DNA of 46,208 bases from Tyzzerella sp. Its GTDB lineage: Bacteria; Bacillota; Clostridia; Lachnospirales; Lachnospiraceae. The notes below the pieces were generated by a model. That model made no database searches and was not told where the DNA came from. It saw nothing but the letters and a program-made list of their open reading frames with translations. The stretch's first letter is position 1. Every line of letters starts with the position of its first letter. Below, one piece after another: positions 37,898 through 46,067 of the stretch. The translations under genes and the position numbers were made by a program. The stretch is taken from NCBI GenBank assembly GCA_017465565.1, contig JAFTWA010000021.1, forward strand, positions 1 through 46,208, read 5' to 3'.

Positions 37898-37926
37898 TTG
37901 ACATTTCTGTGACCAGACTATATAAT
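37898..37926 (+). promoter_or_regulatory. Strong promoter of the tRNA array
   Basis: TTGACA at 37898-37903 and TATAAT at 37921-37926 are consensus boxes with 17-bp spacing, preceded by an A-rich UP-like tract with TAAAAAAAG. It drives tRNA-Pro, -Gly and -Arg and, before insertion, the rest of the array. Confidence 0.92.
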
Positions 37927-38247: not shown

Positions 38248-38291
38248 TATGGTGGGTATGGTGCAGTTGGTTAGCGCGCCAGATTGTGGTT
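38248..38291 (+). repeat. attL: left copy of the 44-bp direct repeat
   Basis: Identical to 45946-45989 over 44 bases. After the last shared T the left copy continues AGTTG, while the right copy continues CTGG into the anticodon stem. Strand exchange therefore occurred within the tRNA-His 5' half. Confidence 0.92.
38251..38291 (+). pseudogene. Truncated tRNA-His 5' half
   Basis: The first 41 bases of tRNA-His, including the extra G at -1, the D arm and the anticodon loop with GTG, are present. The 3' half is replaced by the element, so no tRNA can form. It remains at the end of the native tRNA operon transcript. Confidence 0.9.
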
Positions 38292-38292
38292 A

Positions 38293-38313
38293 GTTGATTG
38301 CTTCGCAATCAAC
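38293..38313 (+). repeat. Perfect hairpin next to attL
   Basis: GTTGATTGC and GCAATCAAC form a 9-bp stem with a TTC loop, two bases inside the att repeat. There is no T run. It may slow or end the tRNA transcript, or bind integrase. Confidence 0.7.
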
Positions 38314-38373
38314 GGAAAATCCCCAAAAACCGCCATTTTTAAACGAAATTCATAACGCTGAAATAACTCTTTT

Positions 38374-38417
38374 CGCGTAAGAATTTCTAGGTAAACAAAT
38401 CTAGAAATTTTTATACG
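38374..38417. promoter_or_regulatory. Left arm-type integrase sites
   Basis: CGCGTAAGAATTTCTAGGT (38374-38392) is followed by an inverted, weaker copy (38401-38417). Near-identical copies occur in inverted orientation at the right end (45897-45915), as expected for arm-type binding sites of a tyrosine integrase. They also overlap the leader of the int gene, so they may be an operator too. Confidence 0.7.
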
Positions 38418-38434
38418 AAAGGAGTTATTTTTTT

Positions 38435-39397
38435 ATGTCAAGAGGAAGAAAAATAACAAAGACTATTGAAATCGAAGTCTGCACTTTAAGACAATCGGCG
38501 GAAGAATTTTACCGCCACAACAGAGTAAAAGGATTGTCAAAAGCCACACAACAAGGGTATAGGGAGTATGTAGAGAATTTTATCAAATGGTGTGGAGAGG
38601 ACACAGGAACTGATGAAGTTACCACAAAGAAACTAGACAAGTATATGCAATCTATAGAAGAAAAGGGAACAAACAAACCAATCTCAATTAAAACAAATAT
38701 GGTTCATATACGCCGTTTTTTGAACTTCTGCGCTAGTCGTGATTATATGGAGAAAGTCGAGGTTACTATTCCAAAGGTTGAAAAGACTATTAAAGAACCA
38801 TACACAGAGGAAGAAATGCGGAAGTTGTTAGCAAGACCGAAAAGCAAAGAATGGGTTGATTGGCGTAATTGGGCTATGGTAAATTATTTCTTTTCCACAG
38901 GGCAACGATTAAGCACAGTTTTGAACATTAAGTTGGAACATTTGGATTTGAAAAATGCAAGAGTGAAATTGGAATGGAACAAAGACAAGATACAGAAATA
39001 TATGCCTTTATCCTCTGCCATTATTAAAGTATTAAGAGAATACATTGATTTAAGCGGATTGGAAGAACAGGACTATTTATTCCCCGAATGTATGGGAAAA
39101 CAATTTACAAGCAGAGGGGCGGAGGACGCGATTGCAGAATACAACAGAAACAGAGGGGTAAAGAAAACGTCAATCCACTTATTCCGCCACACGTTCGCAA
39201 AGAACTATATAATGAATGGCGGAAACCCTGTTAAACTTCAAAAATTACTTAGTCACAAGACGTTAGAAATGACAATGAAATATGTAAATTTGTATGCTTC
39301 TGATGTATCAAATGATTTGGATTTATTCAATCCACTTGATAATTTTAAAAGAGCAAATTATACACCTACTCAAAGAAAATATGTGATTGGAGCGTGA
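38435..39397 (+). CDS. int: Tyrosine recombinase/integrase of the element
   Basis: The 320-residue protein starts at ATG 38435 after AAAGGAG. A SAM-like core-binding domain (about 15-115) has LSKATQQGYREYVENFIKW. The catalytic domain has Arg158 in STGQRLS, HLFRH with His248 and Arg251, His274 in LLSHKTLEMT and nucleophile Tyr283. All key residues are present, so it should be active. There is no obvious arm-binding domain at the N-terminus beyond ~15 residues. Next to attL, transcribed into the element. Confidence 0.95.
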   Translation: MSRGRKITKTIEIEVCTLRQSAEEFYRHNRVKGLSKATQQGYREYVENFIKWCGEDTGTDEVTTKKLDKYMQSIEEKGTNKPISIKTNMVHIRRFLNFCASRDYMEKVEVTIPKVEKTIKEPYTEEEMRKLLARPKSKEWVDWRNWAMVNYFFSTGQRLSTVLNIKLEHLDLKNARVKLEWNKDKIQKYMPLSSAIIKVLREYIDLSGLEEQDYLFPECMGKQFTSRGAEDAIAEYNRNRGVKKTSIHLFRHTFAKNYIMNGGNPVKLQKLLSHKTLEMTMKYVNLYASDVSNDLDLFNPLDNFKRANYTPTQRKYVIGA

Positions 39398-39403
39398 TTA
39401 AGT

Positions 39404-39643
39404 ATGAAAGAAAGATTATATAATTTAATGTCAGAATTTAACGTTATTATACAAGACATTGATTGCCTTGCAGACGCGATAGAAGTACACTTTGACGGAA
39501 TTGTTGAGAACTATGAATGTGAGAAAGCAAGAAGTCTTTTAAGAGTGTATTTGAGCGTTATAAAGGGCATTCACGAAGATTGTGAAGAACTTTACAACAA
39601 GATAGACCAAGCGGTTTTAGACATCAAATACAAGCGCGTATAA
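39404..39643 (+). CDS. Hypothetical small protein after the integrase
   Basis: The 79-residue, mostly helical protein begins MKERLYNLMSEFNVII and has many Glu and Asp residues. No known motif or HTH is seen, so it does not look like a typical excisionase. It starts six bases after the int stop with a weak ribosome site and is followed by a strong terminator, so it is probably read with int. Confidence 0.7.
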   Translation: MKERLYNLMSEFNVIIQDIDCLADAIEVHFDGIVENYECEKARSLLRVYLSVIKGIHEDCEELYNKIDQAVLDIKYKRV

Positions 39644-39649
39644 GCACAA

Positions 39650-39698
39650 AAAAGCGGAAGTAATTACATTTAATATTACTTCCGCTTTTATTTTTTTG
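39650..39698. terminator. Bidirectional terminator between int operon and XRE gene
   Basis: AAAAGCGGAAGTAAT (39650) and ATTACTTCCGCTTTT (39675) are perfect 15-bp complements, with a T run after each arm on its strand. Confidence 0.93.
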
Positions 39699-39912
39699 GA
39701 AACTCTCTTTTTTCATCACTCACGCCAATTATAAAATCCATATTCACATCATAAAATCTAGCCAATTCAACAATACATTCAATAGGCATTCTTAATTTGC
39801 CTTTTTCATAATCTGAATAGGTTGTCTGCGCAACGTGTATTGCCTTTGCGACATAGGTTTGATTGTAGTCTTTATCTTCCCTTAATTCGCGTATTCTTTC
39901 CGCATATCTCAT
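39688..39912 (-). CDS. XRE-family repressor
   Basis: The 74-residue protein starts at the ATG encoding MRYAERIREL, with AGAGGTGG six bases upstream. The HTH is about residues 16-55: YNQTYVAKAIHVAQTTYSDYEKGKLRMP, the XRE_3 pattern. It has no peptidase or sensor domain, so it resembles a Cro/CI-type or single-domain repressor. It is divergent from the 40027 gene, and the palindrome at 39964-39984 lies between them. Confidence 0.9.
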   Translation of the reverse strand: MRYAERIRELREDKDYNQTYVAKAIHVAQTTYSDYEKGKLRMPIECIVELARFYDVNMDFIIGVSDEKREFPKK

Positions 39913-39957
39913 ATAAAACCACCTCTGCCATAATTTTACAGAATATGACAAGGAATA

Positions 39958-39986
39958 TTGAAATTTAACGGAATATCCGTTAAAAT
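39958..39986 (+). promoter_or_regulatory. Promoter of the 40027 gene with operator in the spacer
   Basis: TTGAAA at 39958-39963 and TAAAAT at 39981-39986 with 17-bp spacing. A perfect palindrome TTTAACGGA-ATA-TCCGTTAAA (39964-39984) occupies the spacer, so XRE binding would repress it. Confidence 0.75.
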
Positions 39987-40026
39987 ATGAACAATAGGAA
40001 TAAATAAGTGCGGAAAGGAGAAGAAA

Positions 40027-40434
40027 ATGTCAATAGGTATAGAATACTTTTCAGATTGTTGCAAACAGTTGGGAATTAACTTCGAAGATGTGTTTTGTTA
40101 TGGCAGAGGCGGAACATATTATACAAAAGGGAAAAATATCCAACAATACGTCTTTAAACCGAGCGATAAACAGTTGCGTAAATCACATAAATATGTATTG
40201 AAATATTTTGCTGATGATAAGATTTTTTTGTGTTGGGATTTGAAATACAATCAAAAAACAAAACGAAGAATATTTAATGCAGATAGAAAAGATGTGTTGA
40301 GTGCATTGGGAAGCAAAAAACAGATGTTTTTTGGTAAAGGAATAATAAACAAAAATGCAGACCAAGAAAGAGTATATGTATTAACTGCTGATGATGTTAT
40401 GGCATTTTTACAAAATCTTAAAGCTGACATTTAG
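40027..40434 (+). CDS. Hypothetical protein under XRE control
   Basis: The 135-residue soluble protein begins MSIGIEYFSDCCKQLGI and contains KYFADDKIFLCWDLKYNQKTKRRIFNA. No motif is recognised. The mix of hydrophobic and Lys/Asp-rich parts suggests a small globular or nucleic-acid-binding protein. Because its promoter carries the repressor operator, it is probably an early or regulated gene of the element. Confidence 0.72.
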   Translation: MSIGIEYFSDCCKQLGINFEDVFCYGRGGTYYTKGKNIQQYVFKPSDKQLRKSHKYVLKYFADDKIFLCWDLKYNQKTKRRIFNADRKDVLSALGSKKQMFFGKGIINKNADQERVYVLTADDVMAFLQNLKADI

Positions 40435-40505
40435 GCGTTTTTACGCACTTAATTAACGTGTTTTAAGAATATCTCAATTATAAAAATTAAACGAGGAGAA
40501 AAATT

Positions 40506-41093
40506 ATGAACAAGAAAAGAATAGTAAATATTTTAGAAATTATAATACAAGCCATTACAGTGCTATTGTTGTTTTGTAAGGGGATGTATGTTGGGTATGA
40601 TGGTAGTAAATATTATTCCCTTAGTTTTTCAGATGTCAAAATTGGAATGGCAAAACTTTTTTTAATTGTTTTAATTTCATTATTTGTAATTAATATTGTC
40701 ATTTGTCTAGGTTCTATTAAGCGGAACAATGTTGACAAGGATGGAGTTTTGCACGTTATAATTCCTATTGTAAATGTTATTATAATGTTTGCTATGGGAC
40801 CTTTGTTTTTTTCGTATCATATCGAGAATAGTCAATATATGAATGTATACATTAAACGTGTAGATTGGTTATTCTATACTAACATTTTACTTTTATTTGC
40901 GATTGTTGTCATATCTTTGATTAAGCGTTCTAATACTGTTGTTCCCAAAATTAAGGAGCAACCGCAGATAATAAATAATATACAACAAACAAGTAATGCT
41001 GATGAATTAAAGAAGTTCAAAGACCTACTTGATAGCGGTATTATCACACAAGAGGAATTTGACGCAAAGAAAAAACAATTACTTGGCTTGTAG
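40506..41093 (+). CDS. Membrane protein with C-terminal SHOCT domain
   Basis: The 195-residue protein has about four membrane spans (IVNILEIIIQAITVLLLF, LFLIVLISLFVINIVICL, VIIPIVNVIIMFAMG and TNILLLFAIVVISLI), then a linker and the SHOCT motif LKKFKDLLDSGIITQEEFDAKKKQLLGL at the end. SHOCT (short C-terminal) domains are helical hairpins linked to oligomerisation or interaction. Cargo protein of unknown function. Confidence 0.82.
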   Translation: MNKKRIVNILEIIIQAITVLLLFCKGMYVGYDGSKYYSLSFSDVKIGMAKLFLIVLISLFVINIVICLGSIKRNNVDKDGVLHVIIPIVNVIIMFAMGPLFFSYHIENSQYMNVYIKRVDWLFYTNILLLFAIVVISLIKRSNTVVPKIKEQPQIINNIQQTSNADELKKFKDLLDSGIITQEEFDAKKKQLLGL

Positions 41094-41160
41094 GCGTTTT
41101 TACGCACATTGCTAACGTATATATATTTATATATTATCTGTTAGCACTTTGCGGAAATTG
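41094..41160. repeat. Intergenic hairpin repeat, copy B
   Basis: TTTTTACGCACATT, then TGCTAAC and GTTAGCA as a stem (41110-41116 and 41140-41146) with an AT-rich inner stem, then GTTAGCACTTTGCGGAAAT. Copies of parts occur at 40434-40450, 42011-42031 and 44196-44243. Confidence 0.7.
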
Positions 41161-41184
41161 GAATTAAAGCAAGAGGAGAAGAAA

Positions 41185-41694
41185 ATGAAGTTAAATAAAA
41201 TCATAAAAAGTCCCATACATTTGCTTGGGATAGCAGGCATTATAGTTGGTATTATGATGGTGGTACTTTTAATAGTTTATAAACATAATGAAAAAGATAT
41301 AAATTTTGCGGAAGGATATATTGAATCGTTATATGATAGAATTCCCGAAGTACCTGTATATCCATCTCCGCCAGTTGAAGTAGATGACCTTTTTTACAAG
41401 TGGTCTTATGATGGAAAGATGTATTTTTCTTCGCAAGAAGATGATGTATTTGCATATTATGAACGAGATAAATCCAATTATGAATATTTTCAAGAGGAAC
41501 GAGATAAAGCAATAGAACGTTATGAAAAAGCGGAAAGAGAGTATCAACCAAAGATAAATGCTTGGAATGGTGGAAAAAAGGAAACAAGTTTGAAAGTTAT
41601 TAGAATGGTTATTGTTATAGAAGTGCTAATAGTTATTGCGTTTATTGTAATGATATATAAACAAAAGAGTAGGGGTAGTTATAATGAAGAATGA
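41185..41694 (+). CDS. Hypothetical two-span membrane protein
   Basis: The 169-residue protein starts at ATG 41185, six bases after AGAGGAG. Span 1 is LLGIAGIIVGIMMVVLLIVY (~10-30) and span 2 is VIRMVIVIEVLIVIAFIVMIY near the C-terminus. The middle ~100 residues form a charged extracellular or cytoplasmic part that starts with a Pro-rich segment (YDRIPEVPVYPSPPVEVDD) and ends in a coiled-coil-like, Glu-rich stretch. No family is recognised. The next gene overlaps its end by 11 bases. Confidence 0.72.
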   Translation: MKLNKIIKSPIHLLGIAGIIVGIMMVVLLIVYKHNEKDINFAEGYIESLYDRIPEVPVYPSPPVEVDDLFYKWSYDGKMYFSSQEDDVFAYYERDKSNYEYFQEERDKAIERYEKAEREYQPKINAWNGGKKETSLKVIRMVIVIEVLIVIAFIVMIYKQKSRGSYNEE

Positions 41695-42004
41695 AGAATC
41701 TGAAAATTTTGATGATATGGATTTGAGTGACGATACAGGTGGAAGAATCTGTTCGTTTGCAAAAATATGGCTTGTTATATCTATTGTTGTTTCGATAATC
41801 GTAGGAATTATAGGTGTAATCTCATTTATTGGAAATGGTGCTTTTACCCTTTTACTTATAGCAATCAGTTTAGGTATTGGAAGTTATTTGATATATCTTT
41901 TGTTGTTGGGATTTGGCGAAATGGTTCAAAACACGTGGGATATATACGAAACTAATCAAGCCATTCTTGAACATCTAAAATCTCAAAAGACAGAAGAAAA
42001 GTAA
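41684..42004 (+). CDS. Hypothetical two-span membrane protein
   Basis: The 106-residue protein has an acidic N-terminus (EESENFDDMDLSDDTGG), two hydrophobic segments (IWLVISIVVSIIVGIIGVISFIG and AFTLLLIAISLGIGSYLIYLLLLG) and a charged tail. It overlaps the preceding gene. Family not recognised. Confidence 0.72.
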   Translation: MKNEESENFDDMDLSDDTGGRICSFAKIWLVISIVVSIIVGIIGVISFIGNGAFTLLLIAISLGIGSYLIYLLLLGFGEMVQNTWDIYETNQAILEHLKSQKTEEK

Positions 42005-42010
42005 TACATA

Positions 42011-42031
42011 TTGTTAGCACTTTGCGGAAAT
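42011..42031. repeat. Intergenic repeat, copy C (partial)
   Basis: TTGTTAGCACTTTGCGGAAA matches the 3' half of copy B without the left stem strand. Confidence 0.6.
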
Positions 42032-42052
42032 CAGAATAAGACCAAGAGAAAA

Positions 42053-42080
42053 GCAACAGGAACACCGCCTGTTGCTTTTA
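42053..42080. terminator. Bidirectional terminator
   Basis: GCAACAGG (42053-42060) pairs with CCTGTTGC (42068-42075), flanked by A and T runs, between the convergent genes. Confidence 0.85.
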
Positions 42081-42090
42081 GTATACTGTT

Positions 42091-42294
42091 TTATTGAGTT
42101 TGTATTGGCAAACGTATGATTTGTTCTGCCTGTAAAATTTTAACCCATTTACTAACAGAATCCGCACATCTGCCTGTTATATCTGCAACCGCCTTATAAG
42201 AGCCTAGTTGATTGTATAACTCAACAAATCGTTCTGCTTCTAATCGTGAGATTCTACTACCCTTTTTTGGTAGTTTGTTTTTACGCGTAGCCAT
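42091..42294 (-). CDS. Small HTH protein
   Basis: The 67-residue basic protein begins MATRKNKLPKKGSRISRLEAERF and has a likely helix-turn-helix in SYKAVADITGRCADSVSKWV. It could be a regulator or excisionase-like factor. It starts within the stop of the upstream gene (TAATG overlap), so both are one unit. Confidence 0.72.
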   Translation of the reverse strand: MATRKNKLPKKGSRISRLEAERFVELYNQLGSYKAVADITGRCADSVSKWVKILQAEQIIRLPIQTQ

Positions 42295-42521
42295 TATTTC
42301 GCCATCTGATTTTCTAAATCAGGATTCCATTCTTTCGCTTGTTCTTGTGTTAAGATTGGGCGTGTGAATGCGTCATTGATTGCTTCTTGAATAAACTGTT
42401 TTGTTGTGATTTCTTTGTCAACTCCTGCCTTTTTCAAGATTTCATTCTGTTTAGCAAGGTTGCTATGGAATGTGTTAGGTACGATAAAAATACCTTTGTC
42501 TGTGTCAATAGTGATTCTCAT
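42294..42521 (-). CDS. Hypothetical 75-residue protein
   Basis: It begins MRITIDTDKGIFIVPNTFHSN and is preceded by AAAGGAG. The beta-strand-like start and helical C-terminus resemble small antitoxin or DNA-binding proteins, but no family is certain. Together with the HTH gene it forms a two-gene unit, whose promoter region carries the TAACGGA palindrome at 42582-42602. Confidence 0.7.
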   Translation of the reverse strand: MRITIDTDKGIFIVPNTFHSNLAKQNEILKKAGVDKEITTKQFIQEAINDAFTRPILTQEQAKEWNPDLENQMAK

Positions 42522-42581
42522 AATAGATTCTCCTTTGTGTTTTTTCTTGATTCTACTACAATTCAATAGAATACGTTAAAA

Positions 42582-42602
42582 TATAACGGAACGTCCGTTA
42601 TA
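42582..42602. promoter_or_regulatory. Second XRE operator palindrome
   Basis: TATAACGGA-ACG-TCCGTTATA is a perfect 21-bp palindrome with the same TAACGGA half-site and 3-bp centre as the operator at 39964-39984. It lies upstream of the 42294-42521 gene and beside the iteron array. Confidence 0.78.
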
Positions 42603-42620
42603 TTCTTTGAAATTAGCGAA

Positions 42621-42700
42621 ATTCTAACAGATTCTAGGATATTTTCCTGTATTCTGTTAGATTCTGTTAAATTCTGTTAAATTCTACGATATTCTATGAT
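42621..42700 (+). repeat. Eight 10-bp iteron-like direct repeats
   Basis: Contiguous 10-bp units begin ATTCT (one begins ATTTT): for example ATTCTGTTAG, ATTCTGTTAA and ATTCTGTTAA. The exact 10-bp step places each copy on nearly the same face of the helix. This fits iterons of a plasmid-type origin or a cooperative operator. The adjacent inverted repeat supports an origin. Confidence 0.75.
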
Positions 42701-42706
42701 AATTAG

Positions 42707-42767
42707 GCGGAAGTCGGTGTAATTTCCCTTTTTGGCTAGGTTGATGTGGAATTACGCGGACTTCCGC
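42707..42767. repeat. Large imperfect inverted repeat next to the iterons
   Basis: GCGGAAGTC (42707-42715) and GACTTCCGC (42759-42767) match perfectly; an inner GTAATTTCC with GGAATTAC adds pairing with a one-base bulge. It could form a long hairpin, as in single-strand origins. Confidence 0.72.
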
Positions 42768-42850
42768 GTATTTAAAGAGCGTTCATAAAAGTATACATTT
42801 CCGAACGCGTAAAAACATATCTTTTTTGCGTTTGTAAAAGTATTAAAAAC

Positions 42851-42905
42851 AATTTACGAACGTTCGCAATAAAGTGTTGACATTTACGAACGTTTGCGAT
42901 ATAAT
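42851..42905 (+). promoter_or_regulatory. Serine recombinase promoter with repeated operator/res-like units
   Basis: TTGACA (42877-42882) and TATAAT (42900-42905) have 17-bp spacing. TTTACGAACGTTTGCGAT fills the spacer (42883-42900), and its copy TTTACGAACGTTCGCAAT lies 30 bp upstream (42853-42870) with a CGAACGTTCG palindrome. Likely autoregulatory operators. Confidence 0.78.
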
Positions 42906-42945
42906 AGACTTATCAAGAGAACAGACGAACAAAGGAGAAAAGAAT

Positions 42946-43563
42946 ATGTTTTACGGATACCACAGAACAAGCACAACAGACCAACATTTAGACAGAGGGA
43001 TTGCAGAACTCGAAGCATTTTGCAAAGCAAACAACATTGAACTTGAAAAGATATATACAGACCAACAGACAGGAAAGAATTTCAACCGCCCACGTTATCA
43101 AGTATTAAAAGAGGACATATTGAGAAGCGGAGATACATTGATTGTAACGGAACTTGATAGACTTGGAAGAAACAAGCAAGACACCTTAAAAGAGTTGCGC
43201 TACTTCCAAGATAAAGGAATACGCGTTATGATTTTGGAAATCCCAACTACAACACAGGACTTATCAAAACTTGATAACTCAATGGCTCAAATGATTATGG
43301 AAACAATCAACAATATGCTTATCGAATTATACGCGACAATGGCACAGGCGGAAATCGAGAAGAAAGAGAAAAGACAACGTGAGGGAATTGAAACAAAGAA
43401 AGCGCGCGGAGAATGGGAAGATTATGGCAGACCAAAAGCACAGAAACCGAGTAATTGGGATGAAGTAATCGCACAATGGAACAACGGAGAAATAACCGCC
43501 GTCAAAGCAATGGAACTCACAGGAACAAAGAAAACAACATTCTATAAGTTACTGAAACAATAA
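42946..43563 (+). CDS. Small serine recombinase (resolvase/invertase family)
   Basis: The 205-residue protein starts at ATG 42946 with AAAGGAG eight bases upstream. Catalytic Ser9 is in YHRTSTTDQ, and VTELDRLGRNKQD carries the conserved Arg residues. The catalytic domain spans ~1-140, a helix E-like region follows, and the C-terminal HTH has AVKAMELTGTKKTTFYKLL (~185-203), a Hin-type pattern. It could resolve or invert DNA in the element or act as a transcriptional regulator. It is unusual in an element that already has a tyrosine integrase. Confidence 0.92.
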   Translation: MFYGYHRTSTTDQHLDRGIAELEAFCKANNIELEKIYTDQQTGKNFNRPRYQVLKEDILRSGDTLIVTELDRLGRNKQDTLKELRYFQDKGIRVMILEIPTTTQDLSKLDNSMAQMIMETINNMLIELYATMAQAEIEKKEKRQREGIETKKARGEWEDYGRPKAQKPSNWDEVIAQWNNGEITAVKAMELTGTKKTTFYKLLKQ

Positions 43564-43566
43564 AAA

Positions 43567-43604
43567 TTTGCTTGGGGCTTCGCCCCAAAGCAAAATTTTT
43601 TTGT
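43567..43604 (+). terminator. Terminator after the serine recombinase
   Basis: TTTGCTTGGGGC pairs with GCCCCAAAGCAAA (small bulge) around TTC, followed by a run of seven T. Confidence 0.92.
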
Positions 43605-43647
43605 TAAAACAACGCTTCATCACACCTCTATTAGATACCCCCTCATT

Positions 43648-43676
43648 TTGAAAAATCATAAAATTTTTGTTATAAT
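43648..43676 (+). promoter_or_regulatory. Strong promoter with extended -10
   Basis: TTGAAA at 43648-43653 and TATAAT at 43671-43676 have 17-bp spacing and a TG one base before the -10. It begins a leader of about 300 bases. Confidence 0.82.
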
Positions 43677-43682
43677 ATTTAT

Positions 43683-43869
43683 ATAAGAAATACAGAAATT
43701 CATATAAATAAATGACTATATAGATAACGAGCGTGTCTAGGATTTTGAGTTGCACTCTTGGATTTTTTAGACCACCTCTATGGCACTTTTCATATTTGTA
43801 TTTTGGAAAATCCCGAAATGTACCCCCTCTTATTAACCAAGTTTATACAATCTTCTTATGAAGATTTTT
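43683..43869 (+). ncRNA. Candidate small RNA or attenuated leader
   Basis: Transcription from the 43671 box would pass repeated CACCTCTA and CCCCCTC segments and reach a terminator AATCTTC-TTAT-GAAGATT followed by T residues (43849-43869). The length is about 185 bases. No known RNA family is recognised. Confidence 0.5.
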
Positions 43870-43900
43870 ATATATAATAACGTATCCAACATCTATGAAA

Positions 43901-43944
43901 AGCCATTACATTTTAGTTATGCGGTGTAGTGGCTTTTTCTTTTT
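43901..43944 (+). terminator. Attenuator-like terminator before the 43988 gene
   Basis: AGCCATTACA (43901) pairs with TGTAGTGGCT (43925-43934) with one G-T pair and is followed by TTTTCTTTTT. It lies between the promoter and the gene, so it could attenuate transcription. Confidence 0.75.
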
Positions 43945-43987
43945 GCCTAGATACGTGACAAATTCAAGTGAACAGGAGAAAAAAAGA

Positions 43988-44188
43988 ATGTTACCACAAC
44001 AGGAAATTATAAAGAGATTAAAAATATTAAAGGTTACATCAGACATCAATAATCAATTTATTGCTGACTATTTAGGAATGAAGAACGCGCGAAGCGTTGC
44101 CAACTTCCTACACAATGATTATAACTTATCAGACGAGAAAAGGAGAAAGGCGGAGGAACTTATATCTGATTTATGGAACGAGATATAA
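43988..44188 (+). CDS. Small HTH-like protein
   Basis: The 66-residue protein starts at ATG 43988, behind AGGAG. It begins MLPQQEIIKRLKILKV, and NNQFIADYLGMKNARSVANFLHNDY resembles a helix-turn-helix. An earlier in-frame ATG (43895) lies in the terminator region and lacks a ribosome site. It may regulate the downstream genes. Confidence 0.75.
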   Translation: MLPQQEIIKRLKILKVTSDINNQFIADYLGMKNARSVANFLHNDYNLSDEKRRKAEELISDLWNEI

Positions 44189-44195
44189 GGGAGAA

Positions 44196-44243
44196 TTTAC
44201 GCAACTTGCTAACTATATATATATAATATATTATCTGTTAGCA
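44196..44243. repeat. Intergenic hairpin repeat, copy D
   Basis: TTTACGCAACTTGCTAAC, an AT-rich inner stem, then ATCTGTTAGCA; stem TGCTAAC 44207-44213 with GTTAGCA 44237-44243. The 37-base hairpin is the same length as copy B. Confidence 0.7.
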
Positions 44244-44271
44244 AAGCGTGTAAAACCGCGTGTGAGTGAAG

Positions 44272-44919
44272 ATGTTGGAGAAAAAAACATACACAAGACA
44301 AGCGTTGGTTGAACTCTTTAAAACAAACCGCCTAGACAGTATCAAAGCAAAGATAACAAGGCGCGGATATACATATACAACAAGTGGGCGCGGAAAGGAT
44401 TTTGCATTGACAATAACAAGCGTTCCGCCACGTTTCCGCGAGTTTTGTATTGAGAGATTAGGATTTGCACCTAATACAGATTTTGAACGCTTGAAAGTGT
44501 TTTTATATTGCTTCTTCTTTGTTGATGATTTCCGTCAACTTCCTTTTGTAACAATGAAAGAATGTATGATTAACAATGTGGAAATCACAAGACAAACAAT
44601 TAGTCGGTGGGTTGGAAAACTCTATCATAGTAATTGGATTTGTGACGGAGATTTGATTTACTATTGCATTGATACAAAAGAAAAAACATACAGAAGAATT
44701 GAAAAGGAACAGTACAACAAGGCGTGGAGCATTTATTGGGAAAACAGAACTGATGAAGATGGTTGCGAGTTGCAATATTTTATTGCATACAATCAAATGT
44801 GGATTTATCTTGGCGGACACCCATATAAGAAAAACGATATTATTTTCAATGGCTTTTATACCAAAGACATTGAAGAACTAAAAGAAATTCTAATAAAGGA
44901 GATTGGCGTAAATGAATAA
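44272..44919 (+). CDS. Unrecognised 215-residue protein, possible DNA-binding initiator
   Basis: The protein begins MLEKKTYTRQALVELFKTNRLD. A basic N-terminal part (AKITRRGYTYTTSGRGKD) is followed by a winged-helix-like central region (ECMINNVEITRQTISRWVGKLYHSNWI). The C-terminal part is aromatic and acidic. No family is recognised with certainty. The gene layout and iterons make a replication or regulatory role possible, but it is only inference. The start (44272 or GTG 44266) is uncertain because no ribosome site is clear. Confidence 0.7.
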   Translation: MLEKKTYTRQALVELFKTNRLDSIKAKITRRGYTYTTSGRGKDFALTITSVPPRFREFCIERLGFAPNTDFERLKVFLYCFFFVDDFRQLPFVTMKECMINNVEITRQTISRWVGKLYHSNWICDGDLIYYCIDTKEKTYRRIEKEQYNKAWSIYWENRTDEDGCELQYFIAYNQMWIYLGGHPYKKNDIIFNGFYTKDIEELKEILIKEIGVNE

Positions 44920-45082
44920 GATTTATGACGCGCATATGCGCTATATGGAGAGCAAGGGGCTAGATAAAGAAACCGCGCTTTCAATATTGGTATTCGCAAA
45001 AGCAAACAACTTAATAGAGAATGATGATAATAACGCGAAACAATTCATAGAAGAAATGGTTAAAATCGCGGAAACAATATAA
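44912..45082 (+). CDS. Small protein, 56 residues
   Basis: ATG 44912 overlaps the stop of the preceding gene by eight bases and lies after AAGGAG. The protein begins MNKIYDAHMRYMESKGL and is acidic and helical (FIEEMVKIAETI at the end). Family not recognised. The coupling and ribosome site support it as a real gene. Confidence 0.72.
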   Translation: MNKIYDAHMRYMESKGLDKETALSILVFAKANNLIENDDNNAKQFIEEMVKIAETI

Positions 45083-45103
45083 AAAACAAAGGAGAAAAAA
45101 GGA

Positions 45104-45376
45104 ATGTTAAAAGATTTAACTAATGGCATTACTATTGTAATGGAAGCACCACCAAAAACATATTTTCAAGATTCAATGGAGTTATACAATCCAAATGATG
45201 ACGCAATGACAAATTTCAAGCGATACCAAGAAGCAGAATCACAAAGAATTATGTATGACTACTATGTTCAGAAATTTATGAAAGACGTTAAAGACCAAAT
45301 TGTAAAATCTGCTTCAAAGGAAATCACAGAAGAAGTTTATAAATCCATTGATGATGTTTTAAAAGAAATCAAATAA
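45104..45376 (+). CDS. Hypothetical protein, first of a paralogous pair
   Basis: The 90-residue protein starts at ATG 45104 after AAAGGAG. It has GITIVMEAPPKTYF then LYNPND, and a helical charged C-terminus ending SIDDVLKEIK. The next gene shares EMKAPPKYY, FLYSPY and the helical tail, so they are paralogues. No domain is recognised. Confidence 0.72.
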   Translation: MLKDLTNGITIVMEAPPKTYFQDSMELYNPNDDAMTNFKRYQEAESQRIMYDYYVQKFMKDVKDQIVKSASKEITEEVYKSIDDVLKEIK

Positions 45377-45399
45377 TGTAGTATACAGGAGCAAGAGAA

Positions 45400-45687
45400 A
45401 TGGTTAGACAAGATGGATATAATATTATAATTGAAATGAAAGCACCACCAAAATATTATGGAAAATCGCCAAGATTTTTATATAGCCCATATAAAAGCGA
45501 AGAAGAAAATAACAGAATAATAAATCAAGCATATAGAGATAAATGGGAGTATCAACGTGAATTAAGACGTGTAAAAAAAGAGATTACAGACTTTGCGAAA
45601 AATGTATTCACAAAGGATATTGCAAAGGACATTACAAGAGAAGCAGTTAAATGTGTTGATGAAGTTGTAAGAGAAACTTTAAAATAA
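45400..45687 (+). CDS. Hypothetical protein, second of a paralogous pair
   Basis: The 95-residue protein starts at ATG 45400. Its pattern NIIIEMKAPPKYYGKSPRFLY and the Lys/Glu-rich C-terminus with KDIAKDITREAVKCVDEVV parallel the preceding gene. Function unknown. It lies before the right-end control region of the element. Confidence 0.72.
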   Translation: MVRQDGYNIIIEMKAPPKYYGKSPRFLYSPYKSEEENNRIINQAYRDKWEYQRELRRVKKEITDFAKNVFTKDIAKDITREAVKCVDEVVRETLK

Positions 45688-45703
45688 TCAACGCCTGCTG
45701 CCA

Positions 45704-45730
45704 CTCCGCACTAAAAAGGTGCGGAGGTTT
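45704..45730 (+). terminator. Hairpin ending the last element operon
   Basis: CTCCGCAC (45704) pairs with GTGCGGAG (45719) around TAAAAAG and is followed by GTTTTGG. A TGCCCCC repeat follows at 45739-45751. Confidence 0.7.
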
Positions 45731-45811
45731 TGGCGGTTGCCCCCTGCCCCCTGCATTATTCAAACAAAAAAATAAGATTTAAAAAACCTTGCAAAAAAAA
45801 TAAAAAAGTGG

Positions 45812-45840
45812 TTGACAATATGGCTTTTAAATGATAATAT
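45812..45840 (+). promoter_or_regulatory. Element-borne promoter driving the downstream tRNAs
   Basis: TTGACA at 45812-45817 and TAATAT at 45835-45840 with 17-bp spacing, preceded by an A-rich tract very like that before the native tRNA promoter at 37898. It points to tRNA-His, -Gln and -Lys. Confidence 0.82.
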
Positions 45841-45856
45841 AAGCAAAGTCAGTTGA

Positions 45857-45934
45857 CGCGCAAGATTCGATAAAAAGCCGAATCTTACGCGGACAAACCT
45901 AGAAAATCTTACGCGTCGGTTAAAAAACCGCGTG
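45857..45934. promoter_or_regulatory. Right arm-type integrase sites
   Basis: CGCGCAAGATTCG (45857), its inverted copy CGAATCTTACGCG (45879) and ACCTAGAAAATCTTACGCG (45897-45915) repeat the CGCGTAAGATT core found inverted at the left end. A further hairpin ends at 45934. Confidence 0.75.
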
Positions 45935-45945
45935 AAATAAAGGTT

Positions 45946-45989
45946 TATGGTGGGTATGGTGCAGTTGGTTAGCGCGCCAGATTGTGGTT
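45946..45989 (+). repeat. attR: right copy of the 44-bp direct repeat
   Basis: Identical to 38248-38291. Together with the native 3' part it rebuilds an intact tRNA-His. Confidence 0.92.
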
Positions 45990-46023
45990 CTGGATGTCGT
46001 GGGTTCGAGTCCCACTACCCACC
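45949..46023 (+). tRNA. tRNA-His (anticodon GUG), 5' half supplied by the element
   Basis: Extra G at -1 pairs with the discriminator C. Acceptor GTGGGTA/TACCCAC, anticodon stem CCAGA/TCTGG and loop TTGTGGT with GTG at 45984-45986. The 3' half is the native one. Confidence 0.95.
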
Positions 46024-46067
46024 CTTTTATTTTGCCAAAAAAGCAGAATAAAATAATTAAATACTAT

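Follow-up and report, generated by a model that had tools for sequence, protein, structure and literature searches.

A relaxase-less 7.7-kb integrative element in a Tyzzerella tRNA operon, with a predicted promoter at its tRNA-restoring end and a res-type site

Results

Limits of the element and its insertion site

We analysed a stretch of 46,208 nucleotides of Tyzzerella sp. (contig JAFTWA010000021.1 of assembly GCA_017465565.1), hereafter the window, which carries at positions 38248-45989 a compact integrative element lodged in a tRNA-His gene. The element encodes a tyrosine integrase, an XRE-type repressor, a small serine recombinase preceded by a res-type site, and cargo proteins. Its ends consist of the following features (L004 is a sister element presented below):

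38248-38291, forward strand: attL, 44-bp exact repeat, broken 5' part of tRNA-His, where ARAGORN finds no tRNA gene
38293-38313, forward strand: 9-bp hairpin adjoining the att core, 18/18 cells paired, in the same place in L004
38374-38392, forward strand: left end accessory site, inverted copy of 45897-45915 (18/19 match)
45897-45915, forward strand: right end accessory site, inverted copy of 38374-38392 (18/19 match)
45946-45989, forward strand: attR, 44-bp exact repeat within the restored tRNA-His
45950-46024, forward strand: intact tRNA-His (GTG) found by ARAGORN, its 5' part supplied by the element

The two direct repeats are identical over 44/44 bp and spaced by 7698 bp, so that the exact 44-bp att repeats and the 7.7-kb element in tRNA-His reported by the initial annotation are confirmed, the intact tRNA-His being placed at 45950-46024 by ARAGORN. 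The left copy ends directly past the anticodon loop and therefore corresponds to the broken 5' part of tRNA-His. This fragment lies upstream of the intact tDNA and on the same strand, and the integrase gene stands between the two, on the correct side and in the correct orientation for a tRNA island as defined by Islander.

We joined the flanks across the element and searched 280 bases of the product in 10 genus genomes including its own. Results showed that the flanks are contiguous (whole query, or all of it except the last base) in 6/9 other genomes, each another species, at 72-88 percent identity; the match in G201 covered bases 1-173 and lay at a contig end, while G205 and G206 gave fragments only. 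These contiguous empty sites show the region to be an insertion. The G+C content of the element is mostly 0.29-0.35 (39000-45999), compared with 0.34-0.43 for most of the preceding 9 kb.

Covariation was dropped as a proof of the attL hairpin, as it consisted of one two-sided change in two sequences only and 238/500 shuffles scored equally high. The inverted repeat that joins the two ends, matching at 18/19 positions, exceeded the maximum of 16 reached in 60 shuffles. Pfam recognises no domains in the integrase other than the core-binding and the catalytic one, so that these end repeats are perhaps not integrase arm sites and may rather serve an excision factor or a host protein.

A tRNA restored from its 5' side inside an operon

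In the six empty-site genomes (L058-L063) the operon reads Pro-Gly-Arg-His-Gln-Lys-Leu without interruption. In addition, contig C41 of the same assembly shares an overlap of 133 identical bases with the window end, and tRNA-Lys and tRNA-Leu follow beyond it. The seven-tRNA operon of the relatives and this overlap together place the element in the middle of the operon, separating His-Gln-Lys-Leu from the native promoter at 37898-37926 (12/12 match). The right end of the element contains a candidate replacement:

45812-45840, forward strand: predicted promoter brought by the element before tRNA-His and the later tRNAs, TTGACA-17-TAATAT, 10/12 plus TG

This predicted promoter lies 109 nt ahead of tRNA-His. 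Its A-rich upstream part agrees with the native operon promoter at 38/50 positions (maximum of 30 shuffles, 33). Moreover, in a comparison run without the low-complexity filter, the upstream part gave short matches near the operon start of relatives, with E of 8e-6 to 4e-4 in 5/7 of them and a weaker match or none at the operon starts of L060 and L061. The promoter could have been captured from a host or have arisen by convergence.

Searching the assembly (88.6 percent complete) for tRNA-His gave 11 matches: the one intact copy seen, the left fragment, a tRNA-Gly of the window, and eight loci without tRNA-His. In the Islander catalogue, 159 islands have a 5' fragment and 3760 a 3' fragment, out of 3919 (PMC4383910), and according to a review restored bacterial tRNAs retain their own promoter with very few exceptions (PMC8371274). 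A tRNA restored from the 5' side and equipped with a predicted new promoter would thus be the unusual point of this locus, one that is absent from the initial annotation.

The integrase and its family

38435-39397, forward strand: tyrosine integrase, 320 aa, XerA-like (Pfam Phage_integrase 1.7e-28)

The R, H-x-x-R, H and Y positions of the integrase, which we take to be the catalytic residues, align with solved XerA, and the protein matches phage integrase families in PHROGs. Its family was found in 9/397 genomes of a family sample at 1e-40 and in 13/392 genomes of an order sample at 1e-55, the own genome being counted in each and, like G096, present in both. Among the 10 genus genomes, the own genome was the only one with a match at E 1e-30. 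A scan of genome_contigs with two peptide patterns gave four loci from 222 stretches, one of which, L022, is a distant gammaproteobacterial integrase.

A tree of 22 integrases was built, leaving out L020 and L031 (partial), L022, L023, L042 (frame broken by stops) and L056 (same place as L028). In 12 rows int is preceded, at a distance of 87-264 nt, by an intact tRNA, which is the arrangement that an element carrying the tRNA 3' half should produce. Three of these, L024, L025 and L051, have an exact 50-80-bp repeat of the tRNA 3' part at the far end; in the remaining nine, no exact repeat of at least 16 bases was found within the stretch examined, which was often incomplete. Four rows (L029, L030, L052 and L053), a clade of related integrases, lie directly behind a conserved protein gene, presumably of the GGGtGRT family, and not behind a tRNA, and four have no assigned target, among them L026 with a tRNA 470 nt away. 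A 5' tRNA half ahead of int was seen only in the window and in L004, where it was read by eye. These two form one clade (100/100) beside L019 and L021 (99/98), and a single label change explains the 5'-half trait on the tree, a count as low being reached in 12/500 shuffles. As the tree is midpoint-rooted, the direction of the change, from 3' to 5', rests on the 3' majority.

The tree member L024 (1714-12681, numbered with int forward), an element of 10.9 kb in the tRNA-Thr of a related genome, has a distant serine recombinase close to its related integrase; it also encodes a TraG/TrwB-type ATPase and matches Replic_Relax below threshold.

A serine recombinase with a res-type site

42780-42807, no strand: res site I, 28 bp, arm pair 42780/42798
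42829-42862, no strand: res site II, 34 bp, arm pair 42829/42853
42861-42892, no strand: res site III, 32 bp, arm pair 42861/42883
42946-43563, forward strand: small serine recombinase (resolvase), 205 aa, Pfam Resolvase 5.8e-27, 87 percent identical in L004

The initial annotation had noted an intact tyrosine integrase together with a serine recombinase, and both genes are indeed open frames with clear Pfam matches (1.7e-28 and 5.8e-27). Upstream of the serine recombinase gene, a 10-base arm, TTTACGAACG, is repeated with at most 2 mismatches as facing pairs. The arm pairs of L004 (5737/5755, 5786/5810 and 5818/5840) have spacings equal to those of the window. The joint pattern of sites I and II, derived from these very sequences, occurs once in the window and in 0/100 shuffles. 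In addition, the predicted resolvase promoter (42877-42905, 12/12 match) has its -35 within res site III. The nearest PDB structures are the Sin and gamma-delta resolvases, and at 1e-40 a relative with 42-54 percent identity is present in 10 plasmid records, which include a 5.2-kb plasmid from an uncultured bacterium.

The anatomy is therefore that of Tn3/Sin-type systems, with a small serine recombinase, an adjoining multi-dyad res and a site I of 28 bp; in SGI1, res has a boxI of 28 bp and a boxII of 30 bp, Tn3-type sites having 34 (PMC12217951). Because three dyads lie upstream with the same spacings in L004, the serine recombinase is best read, from its sequence context, as a resolvase, which would act on directly repeated res sites. 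With a single res found, recombination would take place when a multimer brings two copies together, and the presence of a resolution system implies a circular stage capable of forming multimers. Most likely, the two recombinases serve different jobs, integration and multimer resolution.

We give hardly any credence to the serine recombinase being a DNA invertase or a second integrase engaged in phase variation of the cargo. Its best PHROGs family is named DNA invertase (1.5e-46) and its best NCBIfam match is the Mpi invertase, far below cut-off (48.1 vs 272 bits), but the large C-terminal part found in serine integrases is missing from this 205-aa protein, and its site is made of three res-type dyads, of which the window has a single set and no inverted pair.

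The sister element L004

L004 is a contig of 7331 bases from a viral collection. It reads, in order, a 5' tRNA-Leu half, the 9-bp hairpin, int, an 82-aa protein, a type I restriction HSDR_N protein, XRE, a pair formed by a helix-turn-helix (HTH) and a 75-aa protein, res, the resolvase, two small membrane-like proteins and then the contig end. The tRNA-Leu half (anticodon CAG) was recognised by eye, ARAGORN reporting no tRNA there. Identity with the window over the five backbone genes is 65 percent for int, 87 for the resolvase, 67 for the HTH protein, 65 for the 75-aa protein and 54 for XRE, and the cargo differs from that of the window. Searching viral_contigs with the integrase, the 75-aa protein, res, attL and intergenic patterns gave, among the matches listed, only L004 and the distant integrase L023. 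The integrase type and the HTH/75-aa pair are also common to L029 and L019, the 75-aa match being weak in L019 (E 0.003), and L029 has a distant serine recombinase as well.

These comparisons bear on whether the element is a fixed relic, an old integration that has lost its mobility. A single copy is known and, at E 1e-30, the integrase occurs in none of the nine other genus genomes, as a relic would have it. Against this, neither recombinase gene is damaged, the att repeats match at 44/44 positions, the res spacings are kept as in L004, and the site is empty in 6/9 other genomes, each another species. Therefore, the insertion does not appear old, though it is undated, and we regard a relic as very improbable.

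Other genes and features of the element

39404-39643, forward strand: 79-aa protein after int, at the position held in L004 by the 82-aa protein
39688-39912, reverse strand: XRE/Cro-type repressor, 74 aa, HTH_3 4.6e-11, 54 percent identical homologue in L004
40027-40434, forward strand: 135-aa cargo protein, no credible family
40506-41093, forward strand: cargo membrane protein with C-terminal SHOCT domain (Pfam SHOCT 9.4e-11)
41185-41694, forward strand: predicted cargo membrane protein, 169 aa (scanned from 41188), hydrophobic stretches by eye
41684-42004, forward strand: predicted cargo membrane protein, 106 aa, hydrophobic stretches by eye
42091-42294, reverse strand: 67-aa HTH core-gene protein, HTH_23 0.0012 (below cut-off), homologues in L004, L019 and L029
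42294-42521, reverse strand: 75-aa core-gene protein paired with the HTH protein, homologues in L004, L019 and L029
42651-42685, no strand: tandem array of 3.5 copies of the 10-mer ATTCTGTTAA
43648-43676, forward strand: promoter-like site (11/12) before a stretch without called gene, a similar site lying near the L004 end (by eye)
43988-44188, forward strand: 66-aa protein, called frame
44266-44919, forward strand: 217-aa orphan protein, no relative found
44912-45082, forward strand: 56-aa protein, called frame
45104-45687, forward strand: two tandem proteins, 90 and 95 aa, from related DNA stretches (MEAPPKTY / MKAPPKYY), no family

The presence of an XRE repressor, as first annotated, is borne out by its open frame and HTH_3 match, and that of membrane cargo by the SHOCT protein and the two proteins with hydrophobic stretches. 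Sequence comparison of the 79-aa protein with the 82-aa protein of L004 gave no match. The HTH protein is a candidate excision or regulation factor. The model of its 75-aa partner (pLDDT 62.1) is too weak for a fold name, and profile searches of the PDB yielded no match under E 0.2 for the 75-aa protein or under 0.036 for the HTH protein. The array at 42651-42685 had been called origin-like; the array itself, a small one, is there, but nothing shows a role as an origin.

The 217-aa orphan is a candidate replication or DNA-binding protein. No relatives were found in viral_contigs, plasmids, 50,697 phage records, Pfam, PHROGs or NCBIfam, and among 200 family and 344 order genomes (overlapping samples) only its own copy was recovered. 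Its AF2 model is poor (pLDDT 43.8), and its PDB matches, mostly antibody chains with a best E of 0.02, were discarded as chance. A likeness by eye to a winged-helix-like protein of L019 was unsupported, that protein having no plasmid, Pfam or NCBIfam match.

At 43648-43876, a strong promoter-like site is followed by a hairpin with a T-rich tail (by eye), possibly a small RNA. A non-coding RNA at 43682-43876 was rejected, with a folding z-score of -1.0 (+1.0 for the L004 counterpart) and no Rfam match; as folding was no better than chance, 43648 is kept as a promoter-like site only. Intergenic repeats of 86-90 percent identity were also seen at cargo-gene edges (41099-41146/44196-44243, 41139-41175/42012-42048 and 40432-40459/41091-41118), one of them with facing GCTAAC/GTTAGC arms around an AT stretch, and these could possibly be cassette boundaries. 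PADLOC gave no match among nine proteins, seven of the window and two of L004.

Transfer, packaging and possible helpers

The 15 called proteins were scanned against Pfam and PHROGs, and 9/15 against NCBIfam. In Pfam and PHROGs, none of the 15 proteins had a credible match to a relaxase, conjugation, coupling protein, terminase or capsid family. This agrees with the initial annotation, which had listed no relaxase, conjugation, packaging or capsid gene and had called the mobilisation not obvious; a mobilisation gene is not recognisable among these proteins. The weak matches to a baseplate hub (0.007, 79-aa protein) and to head morphogenesis (0.014, serine recombinase) were taken as chance. A holin match of the 168-aa protein (frame scanned from 41188) was below cut-off at 0.076, and the NCBIfam MobP relaxase on the serine recombinase reached 0.02, with 13.8 bits vs a cut-off of 250.

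The assembly contains two PF03432 relaxase genes, of which one adjoins a large serine recombinase and the other is located in what appears, on inspection by eye, to be a Tn1549-like integrative and conjugative element (ICE). Beside relaxase/conjugation-like genes of the same assembly we also noticed by eye a CBASS-like defence operon with nucleotidyltransferase, E1/E2-like and JAB-like genes (L103, 3020-6773, G000:C43). Compared with its own genome, the whole element matched only itself, plus one internal inverted match at 39650-39689.

One reading of these data is a relaxase-less mobilisable genomic island (MGI), whose origin of transfer (oriT) would be used by the resident ICE, the circle being non-replicating and the resolvase serving only for multimers made by transfer. 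Relaxase-less MGIs moved through an oriT have been described (PMC5704250) and two PF03432 relaxases are at hand, one beside the Tn1549-type conjugation-like region (by eye). However, no oriT-like similarity, and hence no borrowed oriT, was found in the own genome, in the 14 + 17 kb relaxase regions, or between 43564-43990 and plasmids, and we hold this reading to be unlikely.

Minimal phage satellites can be without packaging or phage-hijacking genes. An element of this kind would excise and replicate upon phage infection and be packaged by a helper phage, like the PICMIs. The combination of Int, XRE and small proteins without packaging genes fits such minimalist satellites (PMC10803314), L004 comes from a viral contig collection, and the integrase matches phage integrase families. 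On the contrary, the 15 proteins gave no credible match to a terminase, capsid-remodelling, AlpA or primase family, PF03354 TerL gave no match in the assembly (88.6 percent complete; 3/14 control genomes were positive), the 217-aa protein is without match in 50,697 phage records, and a resolvase with res is typical of plasmids and transposons. As there is no credible phage-hijacking gene and no TerL in the assembly, we rank a satellite lower and find it quite unlikely.

Discussion

We consider it reasonably probable that the locus holds an integrative, relaxase-less tRNA island that restores tRNA-His, brings a promoter, forms a resolvable circle and spreads with the aid of a helper. According to this model, the XerA-like integrase would recombine within the anticodon loop of tRNA-His, and since the far end of the element carries the 5' part of tRNA-His and the predicted promoter, insertion would rebuild the tRNA and drive again the severed His-Gln-Lys-Leu genes, a dead 5' fragment of tRNA-His staying behind. 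Once excised, the element would be a circle able to multimerise, and the serine resolvase, acting at the single three-part res, would split multimers into monomers before re-insertion. The XRE repressor probably keeps the element quiet, and spread between cells would most likely take place via a helper, perhaps a conjugative element like the resident one (by eye). Of these points, the sequence itself displays the insertion, the empty site, the restored tRNA, the anatomy of res and the sister element, while the exact crossover point, the promoter activity, the replicating circle, resolution, regulation and transfer by a helper are deduced.

Several observations weigh against this model. The excised circle is something we infer from sequence. 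The resolution system would imply self-replication, as raised by the initial annotation, but none of the element proteins is recognisable as a replication initiator. Promoter matches are frequent in the window (48 found vs 33.5 +/- 6.8 in shuffles) and, being common in A+T-rich DNA, the match at 45812-45840 alone proves little. Single arm-like 10-mers (at most 2 mismatches) occur 32 times elsewhere in the window, their paired spacing being the special part of res. L004 stops at its right end before any restored tRNA-Leu, and its tRNA half was read by eye. A search for the int-XRE-serine recombinase layout in relatives, as first proposed, was answered by L004, but beyond this pair the association of integrase and serine recombinase is looser (L024 and L029, with weaker or distant cases in L045, L050 and L051), and 12 other resolvase loci in 10 genomes had no integrase relative within the stretches examined. 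Finally, when compared by short-word blastn with the 14 + 17 kb surrounding the two relaxases, the element had no match under E 0.1, the best being 0.11.

The description of a compact integrative element thus stands, but not that of an unrecognised type, as relaxase-less tyrosine-integrase islands (MGIs; PMC5704250) are already described, and in SGI1 an integrase is combined with resolvase/res, restored resolution removing multimers (PMC12217951). Like our element, SGI1 is a chromosomal island with a tyrosine integrase and a Tn3-type resolvase/res on the element (PMC12217951); it differs in its 42 kb with TraN/TraG/TraH relatives (PMC5704250) and its target, trmE, whereas the window element has 7.7 kb, a tRNA target and no recognised transfer gene. 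Membership in the SGI1 family does not hold, the target being tRNA-His and not trmE and no tra family appearing among the 15 proteins; nor is the element an integrative and mobilisable element with a relaxase, no relaxase family being found among the 15 proteins by Pfam. MGIs and PICMI satellites, which depend on a helper, resemble it as Int-bearing elements without transfer genes (PMC5704250, PMC10803314), the window element differing in having no oriT relation found and no AlpA or primase family among the 15 proteins.

With the 5'-fragment class of Islander the element shares the tyrosine integrase, the anticodon-loop crossover (predicted in our case), the restored tRNA and the fragment at the other end (PMC4383910), but here insertion took place inside a tRNA operon and a predicted promoter precedes four downstream tRNAs. 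In the pTN3-like archaeal integrative plasmids, attB also lies in the tRNA 5' half and the restored tRNA is element-driven, an arrangement seldom met in bacteria (PMC8371274); these are archaeal elements of another kind, with a split integrase gene. In the tRNA-dependent lysogeny of actinobacteriophages, the element likewise repairs a damaged host tRNA and brings a promoter (PMC10865867), but through a whole phage tRNA gene at another place and not through part of the tRNA at att. In the open-licence literature we found no paper describing the element. It looks like a tRNA genomic island of a known general kind whose configuration is rare, as it lies within an operon and carries the 5' half together with a predicted promoter; its resolution system resembles the textbook case.

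As a tentative extension, on which we would not insist, the window element and L004 may be members of a so far unnamed family of small integrative plasmids, whose hosts would probably be Clostridia in view of the named relatives L019 and L021. A single switch in this family would have changed the part of the target tRNA that is carried from the 3' half to the 5' half; the family would also have gained a promoter resembling that of the tRNA operon and so put several host tRNAs under its control. It would replicate as circles, maintained as monomers by its own resolvase, and short intergenic repeats would be the boundaries between which cargo cassettes are exchanged.

The host tRNAs under element control would here include the only tRNA-His seen in the assembly. 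If our main model is right, a tiny island would take over the transcription of the distal part of a tRNA operon, beyond repairing the tRNA that it broke. The reason why SGI1 keeps multimer resolution is called unclear (PMC12217951), and the present chromosomal island, with its 7.7 kb and a res-type site that has dyads of 28 and 34 bp, may be a simple model in which to ask why integrated elements retain it. The strength of the element promoter would likewise be a test of how mobile DNA tunes host translation.

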